Source: Ruminococcus sp.
GTDB lineage: Bacteria; Bacillota; Clostridia; Lachnospirales; Lachnospiraceae
DNA length: 47,652 bases
Direction: 5' to 3'
NCBI GenBank assembly: GCA_013911065.1
Contig: JACERV010000039.1
Coordinates: forward strand, 1 to 47,652
How positions within the stretch are numbered: position 1 is the stretch's first letter; every line of letters starts with the position of its first letter. The position numbers were made by a program, and so were the translations under genes. The notes beneath the pieces were generated by a model. The model was not told where the DNA came from, searched no databases, and saw nothing but the letters and a program-made list of their open reading frames with translations. Below are positions 40,775 through 47,189 of the stretch, one piece after another.

Positions 40775-41812
40775 TTATCCCGTAAGCAGCAAAATGTCCT
40801 CTTTTGGAATTGCCAATATGCTTGGATAAAGATGCAGTTCTTCAAACATGTTTTTGGGCATCTCCCATCGAAGCATTCCTTTGGAACACTCTGGTTTTAC
40901 CATCAATATTATACTAAAAACACCTTCTGTTACACTTATGATTTCGTAATTTAAAAACAATACATCATTCTTTTCCACTATTCGATGTGCAGGCTGAATC
41001 AGCTTTGCACGGATACCCACAAAAGCAATTTCTTTCTCAGCAGATTCCTGTTTAAATTCCAGTCCAAACTCCGGTGCTATAACCCTGCCGGCATCCACTA
41101 CTACCGGACAGATATTTTTACATCCCGTAAGCAGTGCGTCCGCATAAGTTTCGGGATGATGATATAGTTTCCTCCTACATGCAATTGGCTCATTCCTTCC
41201 GTCCTCCATCACGACCACCCGGTTACTGATGCGGTATACCTCATCACGGTCATGGGATACAAACAATACTGTCTTTCCAAATTTCTCAATTGCCGTAACT
41301 ACTTCTTGTTCCATTTTCCAGCGCAGATAACTGTCAAGTGCAGAAAACGGCTCATCCAGCATAATAATTTCCGGTTTGGAGACCATCATGCGTGCTAACG
41401 CACAGCGCTGCTTCTGCCCGCCAGACAACTGTGCCGGATATTGGTCTTCCAATCCTTCCAGATGAAAAGCGTTCATTATGGCATCCAGTTCTCCTCTCCT
41501 CTTTTTAGTAAGAACCGTGCAAATATTTTTCCGGACTGTCATATTTGGAAAAAGAGCATAATCCTGAAACAGATATCCCGTTTTTCTTTTCTGTGGAGGA
41601 AGAGAGATTTTCTTATTTGAATCAAACACTGTTTTCCCATTGATTACGATTTTTCCACTGTCCGGCTCCTCGATTCCGGCAATACACCGCAATGTCATGC
41701 TTTTTCCGCATCCAGAAGCGCCCATCAGAGCAATAGTCTCATCCTCTGCCTCGAATTTAATATCCAGCACGAAATTTTTCAATTTTTTTCTTATTTCACA
41801 ATATAGAGACAA
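40775..41812 (-). CDS. modC: Molybdate ABC transporter ATP-binding protein ModC
   Basis: This 345-residue ATPase has Walker A GASGCGKS (residues 31-38), LSGGQKQRCALARMM, Walker B IIMLDEPFSALD and switch FVSHDRDEV. The C-terminal 100 residues form a TOBE-type domain as in ModC. The start codon is a TTG (41812) after AAGGGGGGG, with no gap to modB. It powers oxyanion import. Within the ModC/CysA/WtpC group the molybdate assignment rests on modA and modB being next to it and on the nif context. Confidence 0.88.
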   Translation of the reverse strand: MSLYCEIRKKLKNFVLDIKFEAEDETIALMGASGCGKSMTLRCIAGIEEPDSGKIVINGKTVFDSNKKISLPPQKRKTGYLFQDYALFPNMTVRKNICTVLTKKRRGELDAIMNAFHLEGLEDQYPAQLSGGQKQRCALARMMVSKPEIIMLDEPFSALDSYLRWKMEQEVVTAIEKFGKTVLFVSHDRDEVYRISNRVVVMEDGRNEPIACRRKLYHHPETYADALLTGCKNICPVVVDAGRVIAPEFGLEFKQESAEKEIAFVGIRAKLIQPAHRIVEKNDVLFLNYEIISVTEGVFSIILMVKPECSKGMLRWEMPKNMFEELHLYPSILAIPKEDILLLTG

Positions 41813-41814
41813 TC

Positions 41815-42486
41815 TCAGCCCCCCCTTCCAAATGATACCCGTTTATCAAATATATTGACTACCAGCATGACTACAAAAGATATAATCAGATTAATCAGCA
41901 CCCATCCCATTGCTTCCGTATCTTGATTTGTCTGCCAAAAATAGGCAACGGTTGTAGATATGGTGGCCGTTCTGTCTGCAATGTATCCTGCAACCATGCT
42001 TGTGGCGCCGTATTCTCCGAGTCCTCTTGCAAATGCAAGCACCATACCTGCTACAATTCCTGCCTTACAGTTTGGAAGCAGGATTCTCCAAAATATGTAA
42101 GTGTTAGAAAGACAGAGTGTCTTTCCACTCGCAATGATATTTTGATCGAATGCTTCAAATGAACTTCTTGCAGTTCGGTACATCAGTGGGAAAGTTACCA
42201 CAACGACTGCCGCAATCGCTGCATACCATTTCATGGTAATAGTAGTATGAAAATATTCTTTCACTAAAATGCCGGGAACGCTTTTTGGCGAAAGCGTTTT
42301 TAACAGCAGGAAACCGACAACGGTAGGAGGCAGCACCATGGGAATCGTAAATATCGCGTCTAAAATCCCCTTAAGTATCCCAGGGAGCCTGATTACATAA
42401 TAAGCCAGGATAATACCTAGGAAAAAAGTAATACAGGTTGCCAGAAAAGAAATCCTCAAGGAATTCCACAAGGGAAACAGATTCAT
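41815..42486 (-). CDS. modB: Molybdate ABC transporter permease ModB
   Basis: This 223-residue protein has five or six transmembrane segments and the permease coupling motif EYGATSMVAGY-type (ARGLGEYGATSMVAG). The N-terminus LWNSLRISFLATCITFFLG is typical of ModB. AAAGGAGG precedes the ATG. It lies between modA and modC. Confidence 0.9.
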   Translation of the reverse strand: MNLFPLWNSLRISFLATCITFFLGIILAYYVIRLPGILKGILDAIFTIPMVLPPTVVGFLLLKTLSPKSVPGILVKEYFHTTITMKWYAAIAAVVVVTFPLMYRTARSSFEAFDQNIIASGKTLCLSNTYIFWRILLPNCKAGIVAGMVLAFARGLGEYGATSMVAGYIADRTATISTTVAYFWQTNQDTEAMGWVLINLIISFVVMLVVNIFDKRVSFGRGG

Positions 42487-42524: not shown

Positions 42525-43430
42525 CTATTCCTTTTCCCCAGAAACAATCAGAACAATTTTATTATTCAGAAGATTTGTTACAGTATCCCCGTTTATATAT
42601 CCTTCTTCCTGCAGTGTATCCATCTGCTTTTGTGCTGCTGAAAAAAATATATCCGCCGAAGCTCCCTGTTCAATCTGGGTCTGCAAGGTTCCGCTGGAAT
42701 CAAAATTATATACCAGCGTAATATCAGGATACTGTTCGTTAAAAAGCTTTTGAATCGATGTAAGAGATTCCATCAGACTTGCCGCTGCAAAAACATTTAA
42801 TGTACAGGCCTTGTCAGATGCTACTTCAGCCGGTTTTTCATCTGTTGCCATCTCGAATCCGACTTTTTCAAACTCATGGACTGCTCCATCGGAAAGAAGA
42901 AAATTTAAAAATGCCTTTGCTGCCGTTGGATTCTCCGAATTCTTCAAAACCGCTGCCGGATAAAGAACTGGTGTATTCAATGCATCCTCTGGAGCTGTAC
43001 ACACAACCTTAATCCCCTCTGCCGTTGCTGCATCCGTTGCATATACAACACCGCAGTCTACCGTGCCCTCTTCTACCTGAGACAGAACTTCTTTTACATT
43101 CGTGCCATAAGATATTTTACCCTGGATACTATCCCAGAAACCCAGATTACGAAAAATCTCTTCCGAATACTGCCCCACTGGCACACCCGAATTCCCTAGT
43201 GCAATCAAAGTTACTGCGTCTGTATTGACATCTTTAAAACCAGTAATTTTGACCGTTTTTTCCATTTCCGCCTCTGTTTTTGATGTACTTTCTGCCGCCT
43301 CATTATCAGCCACTGCCGGCGGATCCGTCTTAGCTTTTGCAGATGGAACATTAGGTCCAGCATTCCCACATCCGAATAACAGCAGCATCGCTGCCACGAA
43401 ACAAATACATGATTTTTTTACATTTTTCAT
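42525..43430 (-). CDS. modA: Molybdate-binding lipoprotein ModA with circularly permuted halves
   Basis: This 301-residue protein begins with a lipoprotein signal (LLFGC, Cys21) and a linker to about residue 60. Residues 62-192 match the C-terminal half of normal ModA: ITGFKDV, LIALGNSGVPVGQYSEEIF, YGTNVKEVLSQVE, CGVVYATDA, PVLYPAAVLKNSENPTAAK, FEKVGF. Residues 209-301 match the N-terminal half: LNVFAAASLMESL, FDSSGTLQTQIEQGASADIF, SAAQKQMD, NKIVLIVSGEKE-end. In known ModA the order is the reverse. A 15-residue linker joins the old C-terminus to the old N-terminus. All regions expected to contact the oxyanion (AAASL, SSGTL, NSGVPVG, VVYATDA) are present. AGGAATGTGAG precedes the ATG. Confidence 0.88.
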   Translation of the reverse strand: MKNVKKSCICFVAAMLLLFGCGNAGPNVPSAKAKTDPPAVADNEAAESTSKTEAEMEKTVKITGFKDVNTDAVTLIALGNSGVPVGQYSEEIFRNLGFWDSIQGKISYGTNVKEVLSQVEEGTVDCGVVYATDAATAEGIKVVCTAPEDALNTPVLYPAAVLKNSENPTAAKAFLNFLLSDGAVHEFEKVGFEMATDEKPAEVASDKACTLNVFAAASLMESLTSIQKLFNEQYPDITLVYNFDSSGTLQTQIEQGASADIFFSAAQKQMDTLQEEGYINGDTVTNLLNNKIVLIVSGEKE

Positions 43431-43462: not shown

Positions 43463-44458
43463 TTAGGTATAATTGCTGCTGTGGCACAGTGAGCAGTTTG
43501 CACAGTCGTCAGGTGTACATCCCAATGTATCCGCAGGCAGTTTTTGAATGGTAAATCCAGTATGTTCCATCGGAAAAGTATACGTACTGCCGTTTTCAAA
43601 GTTCACTGTATCCTCCTCAAAATCGAAAATTACTTTCATGGCACTCCGTACCTTTATATCGTCATAAAGCGGGTGTTGCTTTTCCGCAGGTTCGAGAACC
43701 AGAAACTCCTCACCTCCTGTTTGAACCATAACTTTATCTTCTACAGTAGAAAACGCAGTAAGCCTCCCTTTCTCATCAAACATAACCGAATTGCTGTCCG
43801 CGTGAACTCCCACTGCATCCGGATCAAAAGCCGAAAAGATTCCGATTGGAGTTTGCAGTAACAATGCTGTTTTTGGTTCTACCGACTTTAATTCTCCACT
43901 CTCATAGAGGGAGAAGCCTATTGCCGTCTCAATCTCACCTGCCGGAGAGTGTACTGTAATGCTCTCTTTTGGATACAGCGTGATGCTTTTTATATTTCCG
44001 CTTTTATAAAAACAGATACCATTTGTATATGCGCAGAAGGAGGCAGCATCCAATTCAAAAGAAAGCGGGATATTATTTTCCCGTTCATCCTCCTCTGACC
44101 AGAATCCGTTTATCTGCCCATTCGATACAAAAGCCTTATGCAGCTCTCCTGTCGGATAAAATGTTACATACTCTGCCGGCAAGATTCCGATTGGACTTTC
44201 AATTTCAGACTGTTCCTCCAGCATGACGGCTTTTATGATTCCATTTTTATGAAATTCCACTGATGCTTTCTTTTTCCGCCTTTGTGATTCTGTGTAAGAG
44301 GGGACCAGTTCTCCCACATGCGTTACAACCATATTTTTCCCTGTCAAATTTACACTTTCAAGCTCTCCGCTGGGATAAGTCTGAAAAGAGGATACATCTC
44401 CAAGAATCCCAAATTCCATCTGTATATGCGCTTTGTCGATTACAAGATAATTCATCAT
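43463..44458 (-). CDS. MORN_2-type repeat protein with C-terminal four-cysteine tail
   Basis: This protein of about 331 residues contains at least six copies of a YxxGxLxxV-type repeat (for example TYPSGELESV, FHKNGIIKAV, FYPTGELHKAF, FYKSGNIKSI, LYESGELKSV). These resemble MORN_2 repeats, which form a beta-strand meander. The last 19 residues carry GCTPDDCANCSLCHSS, four cysteines spaced CX4CX2CX2C, suited to bind a metal or Fe-S cluster. There is no signal peptide. I use ATG 44458 seven bases after GGAGG; the start overlaps the stop of the AnfO-like gene. It lies between that gene and modA. I do not recognise a characterised family; a role in nitrogenase metal handling is inferred from context. 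Confidence 0.65.
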   Translation of the reverse strand: MMNYLVIDKAHIQMEFGILGDVSSFQTYPSGELESVNLTGKNMVVTHVGELVPSYTESQRRKKKASVEFHKNGIIKAVMLEEQSEIESPIGILPAEYVTFYPTGELHKAFVSNGQINGFWSEEDERENNIPLSFELDAASFCAYTNGICFYKSGNIKSITLYPKESITVHSPAGEIETAIGFSLYESGELKSVEPKTALLLQTPIGIFSAFDPDAVGVHADSNSVMFDEKGRLTAFSTVEDKVMVQTGGEEFLVLEPAEKQHPLYDDIKVRSAMKVIFDFEEDTVNFENGSTYTFPMEHTGFTIQKLPADTLGCTPDDCANCSLCHSSNYT

Positions 44459-45084
44459 AGACTTCCCTCCTGATATTGACGGACTGTAATCCGTGCAAGT
44501 ATTCCCTGTTCTGTGTCCTGAACCTGTACATTCCATGCCCCATCACGTGTAATCCAGGGCGGAACGTGTGAACAGCGCAGCTTCAGTTCCAAGAATGGGG
44601 TTGTTGGTAAAAATTCCATAAGAATCTGCTTTGAAGAAAGTTCCGGATGTTCTTTTTCAATTTGAAGCAGATTAAAAAAATAAATGCCGGGGATATCAGA
44701 TTCCAGCGGTTTTATGTTCTCTGCCAATTCCCATTTCATCCGTTTTTCCTTCTTCATTTCTTCCAAATCCAATACAATTCCATTCAGCGTTTCTTTTGTA
44801 TAATCCGGAACCAGAAAAATCAAGAACCCTTCCCTGTCCAAAATGGTATAGGGAATCCCACTGATATCTCTAAATGCTGCTATTTTGCAATTCTCCAGAA
44901 GTTCTGTCAAATACTTTACTGACTTTCTTACCTCTGACACAGTTGACTGCGGAATCGGATCATAATAGATGGTTTTCTCAAGTATAAATTCTCTTTTTAT
45001 TTTTAGAAATATCTGAAAACAGACGCAATCATAAAAATTAACCATGTTTCCGTTCTGATCTGTAAATACAGCAATTCTTTCCAT
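44455..45084 (-). CDS. AnfO-like nitrogenase accessory protein
   Basis: This protein of about 209 residues resembles AnfO, an accessory protein of unknown role encoded with Fe-only nitrogenase. Similar parts are the start MERIAVFTDQNGNMVNFYD, the CKIAAFRDISGIPYTILDRE segment followed by GFLIFL, and the late PFLELKLRCSHVPPW. The recognition is from memory of the family and moderate. I start at ATG 45084, behind AAGGGGGA that lies inside the longer frame. It follows the PqqD-like gene by 13 bases. If it is AnfO, an alternative (anf) nitrogenase may exist nearby. Confidence 0.55.
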   Translation of the reverse strand: MERIAVFTDQNGNMVNFYDCVCFQIFLKIKREFILEKTIYYDPIPQSTVSEVRKSVKYLTELLENCKIAAFRDISGIPYTILDREGFLIFLVPDYTKETLNGIVLDLEEMKKEKRMKWELAENIKPLESDIPGIYFFNLLQIEKEHPELSSKQILMEFLPTTPFLELKLRCSHVPPWITRDGAWNVQVQDTEQGILARITVRQYQEGSL

Positions 45085-45097
45085 AATGTTCCCCCTT

Positions 45098-45388
45098 TCA
45101 CTGTTCAATTTCTACCACATTTCCATGAATCAGCTTTGCAAGAAATTCGCCCACCTCATATTCAGCATCCTCTCTGCTGACTTCAAATTTATCAGTAACT
45201 GTGCTAATCAGCTCTTCGGTATCCGCACCCTTTTCCAGCCTGCTCCATAAAAAGATACAGGCTTCATTGACAGACGGAAGTCCTGTCAGTGAACCGTTAT
45301 CACTGTCTTTTTCGTAAAAGATGCAAAACTCTCCTCCAAGCTCTCTTAAAATATAACCTTCTTTTAATTTTGCTGATTTAATATTCAC
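45098..45388 (-). CDS. PqqD-family peptide chaperone-like protein
   Basis: This 96-residue protein has the PqqD fold pattern: an N-terminal beta part (EGYILRELGGEFCIFYEKD), NEACIFLWSRLEKGADTEEL and a C-terminal helix part (FEVSREDAEYEVGEFLAKL). PqqD proteins bind precursor peptides and present them to radical-SAM enzymes. No radical-SAM gene or short precursor peptide is visible in the window. The start is GTG 45388, five bases after AGGAGG. It lies between nifV-alpha and the AnfO-like gene, an unusual context. Confidence 0.75.
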   Translation of the reverse strand: MNIKSAKLKEGYILRELGGEFCIFYEKDSDNGSLTGLPSVNEACIFLWSRLEKGADTEELISTVTDKFEVSREDAEYEVGEFLAKLIHGNVVEIEQ

Positions 45389-45397
45389 ATTGTCCTC

Positions 45398-46216
45398 CTA
45401 TAGGAATTTTCTTCTATCCGGCTTAATCATCCCCGATAACAGTTCTTCAATCTTAAGTACACTGCGTTTGTCAATTCCTGTGTCAAAGTGGACTTCACAG
45501 GCATGAATAAAATCATACATATTGCAGTTCCCAGATCGTTCGCCAATACCCAGTATCGTACAATCAATCAAACCTGCCCCCATGTTGGCCATTTCCAGGG
45601 AATTGGCCACAGCCATACCAAAATCATTATGTTCATGTGCTTCAATCATTATAGAAGAATGGCTGTGTATTTCTTTTACCAGCTTTCCTGCACGTACAGG
45701 TGTAAAAATACCGACTGTATCCGCCAGCCTGATAATTTTTATTCCCATTTTTTCAGCCTGAACCGCCAATTTTATCATAAATCCTATATCGGCACGTGAA
45801 GAATCCTCAAATCCGGGTGTCACCTGCACATGGAAGTTATTCGCTATTTCTATACATTCCATGAACTGTTTTTCTACCCAGGCTTTATTTTTATTGAGCT
45901 TGGAGTAAATCTGTACATAACTGACCGGAACTGCGATATGCACGATATCCGGTTTTTGACGGCATGCTTCCATAACATCTACAGGGTTCAGCCTGCTCCA
46001 AAGTGATATTTTGGCATGTTTTTTCTGGTGCATGATTTTAGACAGATATTCCCTCCCCTCTGTCTTCCGGTCAAATATTCCGACTTCTATCTCGGATACA
46101 CCTATTTCATCCAGTGCCCGTGCCAATTTCACCTTATCTTCCGGGAAAAAAACAACTCCCGGGCACTGTTCCCCGTCACGCAATGTTGTATCCACTATAC
46201 TAAGTTTTTTCATCAT
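45398..46216 (-). CDS. nifV: Homocitrate synthase, catalytic subunit (NifV-alpha)
   Basis: This protein of about 272 residues is the catalytic TIM barrel of homocitrate synthase: IVDTTLRDGEQCPG at the start, the metal-binding HEHNDFGMAVAN at about residue 194 and LGIGERSGNC. It lacks the C-terminal accessory region of full-length NifV (about 380 residues), which is supplied by the omega gene just upstream. The same split and gene order (omega, then alpha) is known from C. pasteurianum. It condenses acetyl-CoA with 2-oxoglutarate to give homocitrate for the FeMo cofactor. The start overlaps the omega stop; ATG 46216 or 46213 is likely. Confidence 0.88.
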   Translation of the reverse strand: MMKKLSIVDTTLRDGEQCPGVVFFPEDKVKLARALDEIGVSEIEVGIFDRKTEGREYLSKIMHQKKHAKISLWSRLNPVDVMEACRQKPDIVHIAVPVSYVQIYSKLNKNKAWVEKQFMECIEIANNFHVQVTPGFEDSSRADIGFMIKLAVQAEKMGIKIIRLADTVGIFTPVRAGKLVKEIHSHSSIMIEAHEHNDFGMAVANSLEMANMGAGLIDCTILGIGERSGNCNMYDFIHACEVHFDTGIDKRSVLKIEELLSGMIKPDRRKFL

Positions 46217-47189
46217 AAGTCTCATACCTCCCGACCATTTCTATAAATTCTTCCTCTGTAATGGCGGTTCCCCGTGCCCTGCTTTTTTCTTTGATCAACT
46301 GAAGCAGGTCTTCTGTATGATCTTGAAATGTATTCTCCATATGAAGTTTCTTTAATTTAAAAGTAACACAACCTTTTCCTGAGTGCTTTCCAAGAATTAC
46401 TTCCCTTTCTAAACCGACCAGCTCCGCAGGATATGGTTCATAATTGGCAGGCTTTTTTAAAATGCCATCGACATGAATACCTGATTCCACATAAAAAATG
46501 CGGGTGCCGAGTACGGGTGCCATGGGAGATATCTCCTCTTTCAATACATCCTCAAGCCAGCATTTTAACCTTGAGAAATCTTTAAAATCATGATTCACCA
46601 TGTATCGTTCAATCACATGCAGTGCCATGAGAATTTGCTCTGTTGCGGCCTTATTTCCAATCCCAAGCAAGGTTGATACAACGGCATACCCCTTATTTTG
46701 AAGGAACAGGGTTGCAATTGCCGTTGCACAGTGGTAAGTATTCTCCGGACATAGAATAAGCTGCTTTAATTCAAATCTCTTTTTTAATGTCTCCAGCCCC
46801 ACATTGCACCCTCCAAGCAGAAGTTTATCTAATCCTGTAACCCTCAGCAGCGAATTTTCTTCAGCCGGTACTATCTTTACCGGCTCTTCCATATCATTAA
46901 TCTGATAGGTTTCGATTTCTCTTTTTCCTCTTTTCTGCTTGGGGGTAAAATAATATTTAATCCTTTTATCCTTTGGATAATCTTCATTCATGTAGGAAAC
47001 GGTATCCACTTCAAGATAATAGGTCATTCCATCCGGCAGGTTTCCCTCCAGTTTTTCATACACGCCGGCAGAAATCTGCAGATTTCTGATACCGATTTTT
47101 CCCATAAGCTCCACAAAACGATATATCTGTTCCCGGGTTAAATTATAGTTATCAAGAATGCATAGTGTAGCATCTATAATTCTTATCAT
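46200..47189 (-). CDS. nifV: Homocitrate synthase, C-terminal subunit (NifV-omega)
   Basis: This 329-residue protein is the partner of NifV-alpha. Its C-terminal part has ESGIHVDGI (residues 235-243) and EVILGKHSGKG (263-273), typical of homocitrate/isopropylmalate synthases. Its N-terminal part is a worn-down barrel. IIDATLCILDN stands in place of DTTLRDGEQ, and CPENTYHCATA in place of the HEHND metal motif, so it is probably not catalytic. GGAGG precedes the ATG. It follows the ferredoxin gene by 24 bp and overlaps nifV-alpha. Confidence 0.83.
   Translation of the reverse strand: MIRIIDATLCILDNYNLTREQIYRFVELMGKIGIRNLQISAGVYEKLEGNLPDGMTYYLEVDTVSYMNEDYPKDKRIKYYFTPKQKRGKREIETYQINDMEEPVKIVPAEENSLLRVTGLDKLLLGGCNVGLETLKKRFELKQLILCPENTYHCATAIATLFLQNKGYAVVSTLLGIGNKAATEQILMALHVIERYMVNHDFKDFSRLKCWLEDVLKEEISPMAPVLGTRIFYVESGIHVDGILKKPANYEPYPAELVGLEREVILGKHSGKGCVTFKLKKLHMENTFQDHTEDLLQLIKEKSRARGTAITEEEFIEMVGRYETYDEKT

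Follow-up and report, generated by a model that had tools for sequence, protein, structure and literature searches.

The window, a 47,652-nucleotide contig of Ruminococcus sp. (JACERV010000039.1), carries on its minus strand an open reading frame of 301 residues (42525–43430) for a lipoprotein in which the C-half of ModA precedes the N-half. The frame starts with a lipoprotein signal peptide (residues 1–21; 43368–43430), recognised by reading of the sequence; Cys21 was assigned by the lipobox rule and is invariant across the six aligned permutants. It is followed by a tether (residues 22–61; 43248–43367) that is longer in the alignment than in the permuted relatives and is predicted to be disordered, with AlphaFold2 pLDDT values of 42–62 in the 10-residue blocks up to residue 60. 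The ModA part that is normally C-terminal comes next (residues 62–192; 42855–43247), corresponding to positions 98–230 of the structure 4kd5 and 97–212 of TIGR01256. Between both matched stretches lies the linker that joins the old C- and N-termini (residues 193–208; 42807–42854), and the normally N-terminal part stands last (residues 209–301; 42528–42806; 4kd5 positions 6–96). The initial annotation had counted 15 residues in the linker, which we correct to 16; its placement of the stop codon directly after the N-half was borne out by the reading of the frame. On the same strand follow modB, encoding a permease (41815–42486; TIGR02141, 189.3 bits, exceeding the cut-off of 182.6), and a modC-like ATPase gene (40775–41812), which matches PF00005, scores 193.6 bits with TIGR02142, below the cut-off of 285, and is named by its position. 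Since modB starts 38 bases past the modA stop and the upstream frame ends 32 bases before the modA start, neither side offers space for a remaining ModA half.

The exchanged order was seen with both ModA profiles and in the listed alignments to solved sequences. PF13531 matched the window protein with 160 bits (cut-off 25) in two stretches, the best of which aligned residues 58–193 with profile positions 91–227. On the genome, the same profile matched the minus strand at C45:42852–43259 (positions 91–227) and at C45:42534–42800 (positions 1–88). TIGR01256 gave 152.7 bits (cut-off 62.5), again in two stretches. Seventeen distinct solved sequences matched the protein, 13 of them in two stretches, and among the matches listed the stretches were reversed in order in all four alignments to solved sequences. 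In the alignment with C. difficile ModA 4kd5 (E 3.4e-44), query residues 209–299 corresponded to chain positions 6–96 and residues 61–193 to positions 98–230, so that together the two pieces cover a normal ModA almost completely. Such a two-stretch, reversed match is far beyond chance. The reading of the protein as C-half (62–192) followed by N-half (209–301) thus holds for PF13531, TIGR01256 and 4kd5 alike, while the usual linear order of the halves is absent. Colinearity with ModA, which would speak against a permutation, is not found: linear alignment fails just as a permutation predicts. As the sequence exceeds the ModA cut-off with its order swapped, we classify it as a permuted ModA and not as a standard member of the family. 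That TIGR01256 still scores it above cut-off also means that profile-based annotation can hide such permutants.

The expectation that the permuted protein should fold agreed with structure prediction. AlphaFold2 predicted the window chain as one confident fold (pLDDT 83.5, with blocks of 81–96 over residues 61–300, and a moderate pTM of 0.73), and a differently cut permutant, L046 (see below), reached a pLDDT of 91.6 and a pTM of 0.83. Sequential structure comparison by Foldseek and VIA-align listed 12 and 7 ModA rows, none of which extended beyond the first (C) part of the models; sequential aligners are expected to behave in this way with a permutant. OpuAC could be aligned colinearly with the greater part of either model. 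The resemblance between the two lobes may account in part for the full-length matches to 4h1x, OpuAC and HisG, which are hence not proof. In our reading, the chain would start in lobe B shortly past hinge 1, cross to lobe A, pass the linker closing the old termini and then the old N-terminal half, and end where a normal ModA would enter the rest of lobe B. The cut, originally placed at a lobe boundary, does lie near hinge 1; probably, however, it falls a few residues past the hinge and not precisely on the boundary. The permuted chain should form the usual two-lobed trap, from which ModBC would receive the oxyanion. What would chiefly change is the site of the membrane tether, which is lobe A in a normal ModA and would be lobe B here.

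The window genome is a 51-contig draft with a contamination of 4.31%, and one could imagine that two modA fragments had been joined in the wrong order during assembly or annotation. Yet modA is identical in nucleotides in a separate record, that of Faecalicatena contorta NLAE-zl-C134 (L044; L036/L044 100%). L044 looks like the same genome as G200, and G200 and G1088 also look like one genome; elsewhere L044 differs from the window genome, its nifE being 97% identical to that of G000. The proposed search for homologues with swapped order moreover recovered diverged copies, and the order proved conserved among proteins with the window's cut as well as in a second group. Two members of other genera, G476 (locus L125) and G045 (locus L007), share order and cut at 64% and 51% identity to the window protein, respectively. 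We refer to the permutants with the window's cut (window, F. contorta, L125 and L007) as type I. Given the identical F. contorta copy and the diverged same-cut permutants in two genera, the permuted gene is not an artefact, and we rejected an assembly error as practically inconceivable.

In F. contorta L044, the genes are arranged in the order nifE, nifN-B fusion, 2Fe-2S ferredoxin, two homocitrate synthase parts, PqqD-like, AnfO-like, a 357-residue protein without family, permuted modA, modB and modC-like. The window holds this order from the ferredoxin onward, and G476 shows the same order. The homocitrate synthase of the nif operon is split into two adjacent, overlapping genes (HMGL-like and HCS_D2; 45398–47189, minus strand), and the operon also contains the gene of a PqqD-like small protein (45098–45388, minus strand) that is likewise present in G476, G292, G387 and G452. 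The 357-residue protein (43463–44536, minus strand), which has no Pfam or NCBIfam match, is a candidate nif-operon gene product; 23 of the 383 genomes from the order encode relatives, and anfO or nifV genes lie alongside in nine of 11 stretches. A search for modA at E 1e-5 in ten further stretches with this gene (L198–L207) found none in nine of them. L207 (G235) holds a distant modA-modB-modC set on the opposite strand, in which a modA C-half (29% identical) lies directly before modB; the N-half of the L207 modA was not detected. In the window genome, the permuted ModA would probably feed the Mo nitrogenase operon that it follows. A role of type I confined to nitrogen fixation was rejected: modABC stands behind the nif operon in L044 and G476, whereas in G045, an 84% complete genome with permuted modABC, nifE gave no match, and the link between modABC and nif is therefore not general. 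At the G045 locus, a gene divergent from the permuted modA (L007:221–1165, minus strand) encodes an excisionase-type HTH joined to a domain that resembles the C-terminal part of PRK14498; as a guess, its product is a candidate regulator.

A second, differently cut group had escaped the initial annotation, as had the nif-operon context. Three uncultured Clostridia, L045 (RUG608), L046 (RGIG3527) and L047 (SRR8387721_bin.54), here termed type II, also encode the C-half ahead of the N-half. Their cut lies about 20 residues later, so that the last part runs through FDDLAAALKK (FDGLAAALKK in L047) and the first part begins near LLVMGNS. In L046, modA is flanked by a molybdenum-cofactor-synthesis-type gene and an XdhC-type gene; this is not a nif setting, and nifE gave no match in the three type II genomes.

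Permuted ModA is rare. Among 127 distinct ModA-like frames in 175 loci, 115 had the normal order, seven ran C-then-N and five were other or partial; one of the seven is part of a broken tandem (L052), and the permuted order occurs in six distinct proteins. The search of genome contigs had yielded four permuted loci (L044–L047), besides L052, among the 80 kept of 157 relatives. Full-length permuted matches were obtained in two of four sampled genomes of the window's genus, 2/200 and 2/397 of its family, 2/392 of its order, 1/391 of its class and 1/58 of the family of G476. These samples overlap, and as the searches of order (392), class (391) and family (397) scored at most six candidates per genome, permutants may be missed there. 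A plasmid search matched 215 records, none of which held 80% of the query in one place.

For type II, the rearrangement could be followed in the DNA. L046 and a normal-order locus of Ruminococcaceae RUG11086 (L106) are colinear over about 9 kb at 78–92% identity, the exception being an exchange of blocks within modA. The block of the signal peptide has kept its position (L046 5081–5235 = L106 6619–6772), the C block (L046 5244–5608 = L106 7148–7512) sits ahead of the N block (L046 5645–5991 = L106 6778–7124), and modB and the rest follow. The type II cut corresponds approximately to LLK/GGAILMAMGN of L106. A further locus, L119, shows the same swapped pattern against L046 in modA and downstream, with a rearranged left flank. 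With a permutant (L046) and a normal-order relative (L106) having a common locus at the DNA level, the event is traceable almost step by step. The inner linker of the type II permutant is rich in Ala and Glu, as are the tethers of L119 and other normal relatives, suggesting that it originated from the tether of a second copy. An origin by tandem duplication, as had been proposed for the window gene and as is described in the accessible text on the permutation-by-duplication model (PMC3320104), is plausible in view of a type II relative, L052 (RUG282; L052:1–1393). This locus of the same kind carries a tandem modA next to modB, with repeats (332–796 and 916–1380) that are 90% identical and an in-frame join from the first C-half to the second N-half. 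However, neither copy has its N-half joined in frame to its C-half; L052 is therefore either decayed or misassembled and gives a hint, not proof, of permutation by duplication. Fusions of another kind were also observed: at L071:7792–9360, a single reading frame joins ModA to another ModA-like domain of divergent sequence (N-C-N-C), and L068:1–1086, cut by a contig end, encodes a similar fusion.

We built a ModA tree with the halves in canonical order from 122 of the 127 distinct frames (left out were three of L052 and those of L068 and L093). Type I formed one clade (SH-aLRT 95) and type II a separate one (SH-aLRT 100), both set among normal-order proteins. Forcing all six permutants into one clade was rejected at a cost of 69 log-likelihood units (AU p 0.030). 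The ModB tree (117 rows) held five of the six permutants, the modB of L047 being cut by a contig end; here the single clade cost 60 units (AU p 0.037), with a warning of long branches meeting. Trees of each ModA half alone, which have few columns, also kept the groups apart. Alignments A5 and A9 comprised 25/50 C-half and 25/50 N-half fragments and four whole permutants; the deep fragment alignment A4 had misaligned C-half fragments and was excluded. These tests leave some scope for a single permutation whose cut later drifted by about 20 residues while the gene spread by transfer. When the long-branch row L007 was omitted, one clade was no longer rejected for ModA (AU p 0.244, cost 29.8 log units), and the linker and tether regions align poorly; the free tree computed without L007 nevertheless kept type I and type II apart. 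Against a single event, the halves of L046 are 82.4% identical to those of normal-order L106 and only 52.7% to those of the window protein (L047 and L106 share 78.2%), and L046 and L106 have a common locus at 78–92% DNA identity, with 79–82% in the two modA blocks; type I and type II are also cut at different sites. Because L046 is nearer to L106 than to the window, and the two loci are colinear except for the modA blocks, we infer that two separate permutations took place. This is very likely in our judgement, with partial support from the tree tests, whereas a single drifting permutation appears unlikely.

The oxyanion ligands of E. coli ModA, which we take to be Ser12, Ser39, Ala125, Val152 and Tyr170, were mapped via alignments to solved structures onto S218, S246, V85, V112 and Y130 of the window protein, and these five residues are invariant in all six aligned permutants. 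The next gene is modB in all six permutant loci, and modC is present in five, L047 being cut by the contig end. Three type II pairs gave dN/dS values of 0.06–0.10; in type I pairs dS is saturated, so that selection is judged by conservation only. TIGR01256 was further used to search nine genome entries, eight of which carry a permutant (G200 and G1088 being apparently one genome). The permuted copy was the only ModA found in five of the eight entries (G045, G476, G1089, G1090 and G1091), though this may reflect missing sequence, since G045 is 84% complete and L045–L047 are MAG contigs; in G1091, the two pieces of the permuted copy score below the TIGR01256 cut-off. A normal-order ModA is also held by G000, G200 and G1088, and G1092 holds the tandem. 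In G000, the normal-order paralogue adjoins a gene that, named by eye, resembles a molybdopterin oxidoreductase.

The invariant ligand positions, the modB and modC neighbours, the low dN/dS and the genomes with no other ModA found mark the permutant as a predicted molybdate receptor, and most likely it works as one. Judged from sequence, it is highly probable that the protein serves a ModABC importer as a functional lipoprotein for molybdate (or tungstate), that its gene is circularly permuted, and that the protein would take part in both binding and transport. A genuine permuted gene might instead have lost molybdate binding and now serve as a sensor or buffer, or be decaying; normal ModA proteins elsewhere in G000 and G200 would permit this, as the permuted copy need not be essential there. 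Such a loss is quite improbable in the face of ligand positions conserved in six of six proteins, modB following in every locus, the five entries in which no other ModA was found, and dN/dS values of 0.06–0.10 in type II.

ModA of P. aeruginosa is classified as a cluster D-IIIa solute-binding protein (PMC9171197). With ModA (TIGR01256, PF13531), the window protein shares both halves, the ligand positions, and the modB and modC-like neighbours; it differs in the order of the halves and, as predicted, in having its termini and lipid tether in lobe B, not lobe A. The accessible text of PMC4990184 describes TpMglB-2 (Tp0684), a circularly permuted glucose-binding lipoprotein designated 'Type Ic', which like the window protein is a natural circular permutation in a tethered ABC-importer binding protein, and for which the authors raise a link of permutation to tethering. 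According to the same text, it differs by its Type I fold, its sugar ligand and a fourth crossover added by the permutation; between its permuted end and the corresponding part of EcMglB, identity is only 13%. In the available portion of PMC2395249, CPSARST grouped the glycine betaine-binding 2B4L (OpuAC), 1R9L and 1SW1 with ModA (1AMF/1ATG) into one circular-permutation family. These, too, are bilobed binding proteins related by circular permutation, with less than 24% identity and different ligands, according to that portion. Unlike in the glycine betaine group, the permutation described here lies inside the ModA family and has close normal-order relatives. The initial statement that no permuted ModA had been described agrees with the literature matches listed, among which none was recognised, although permutation is known from other solute-binding proteins. 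The accessible parts of PMC3589368, PMC3937361, PMC10469547, PMC7824862 and PMC2861598 contain nothing on permuted ModA; in PMC3589368, as far as its available text goes, the permuted part is a fluorescent protein.

Whereas TpMglB-2 and the glycine betaine group are, in the text available on them, distant from their normal-order relatives, the ModA permutants stand out by an apparent recurrence and a DNA event that can be read. At least one more event of this kind, with a different cut, seems to have taken place in rumen and gut Clostridia. This second group serves as a replicate, and it becomes possible to test why permutation is tolerated or favoured among binding proteins with a tether. Tentatively, and with considerable doubt, one may suppose that the lipid anchor of ModA was shifted from lobe A to lobe B in two lineages independently, owing to some advantage of a tether on lobe B, for instance that it positions the trap on ModB or frees lobe A. 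If this were true, permutation would be a way of adaptation that tethered binding proteins can take repeatedly, which would fit the link to tethering put forward for TpMglB-2.
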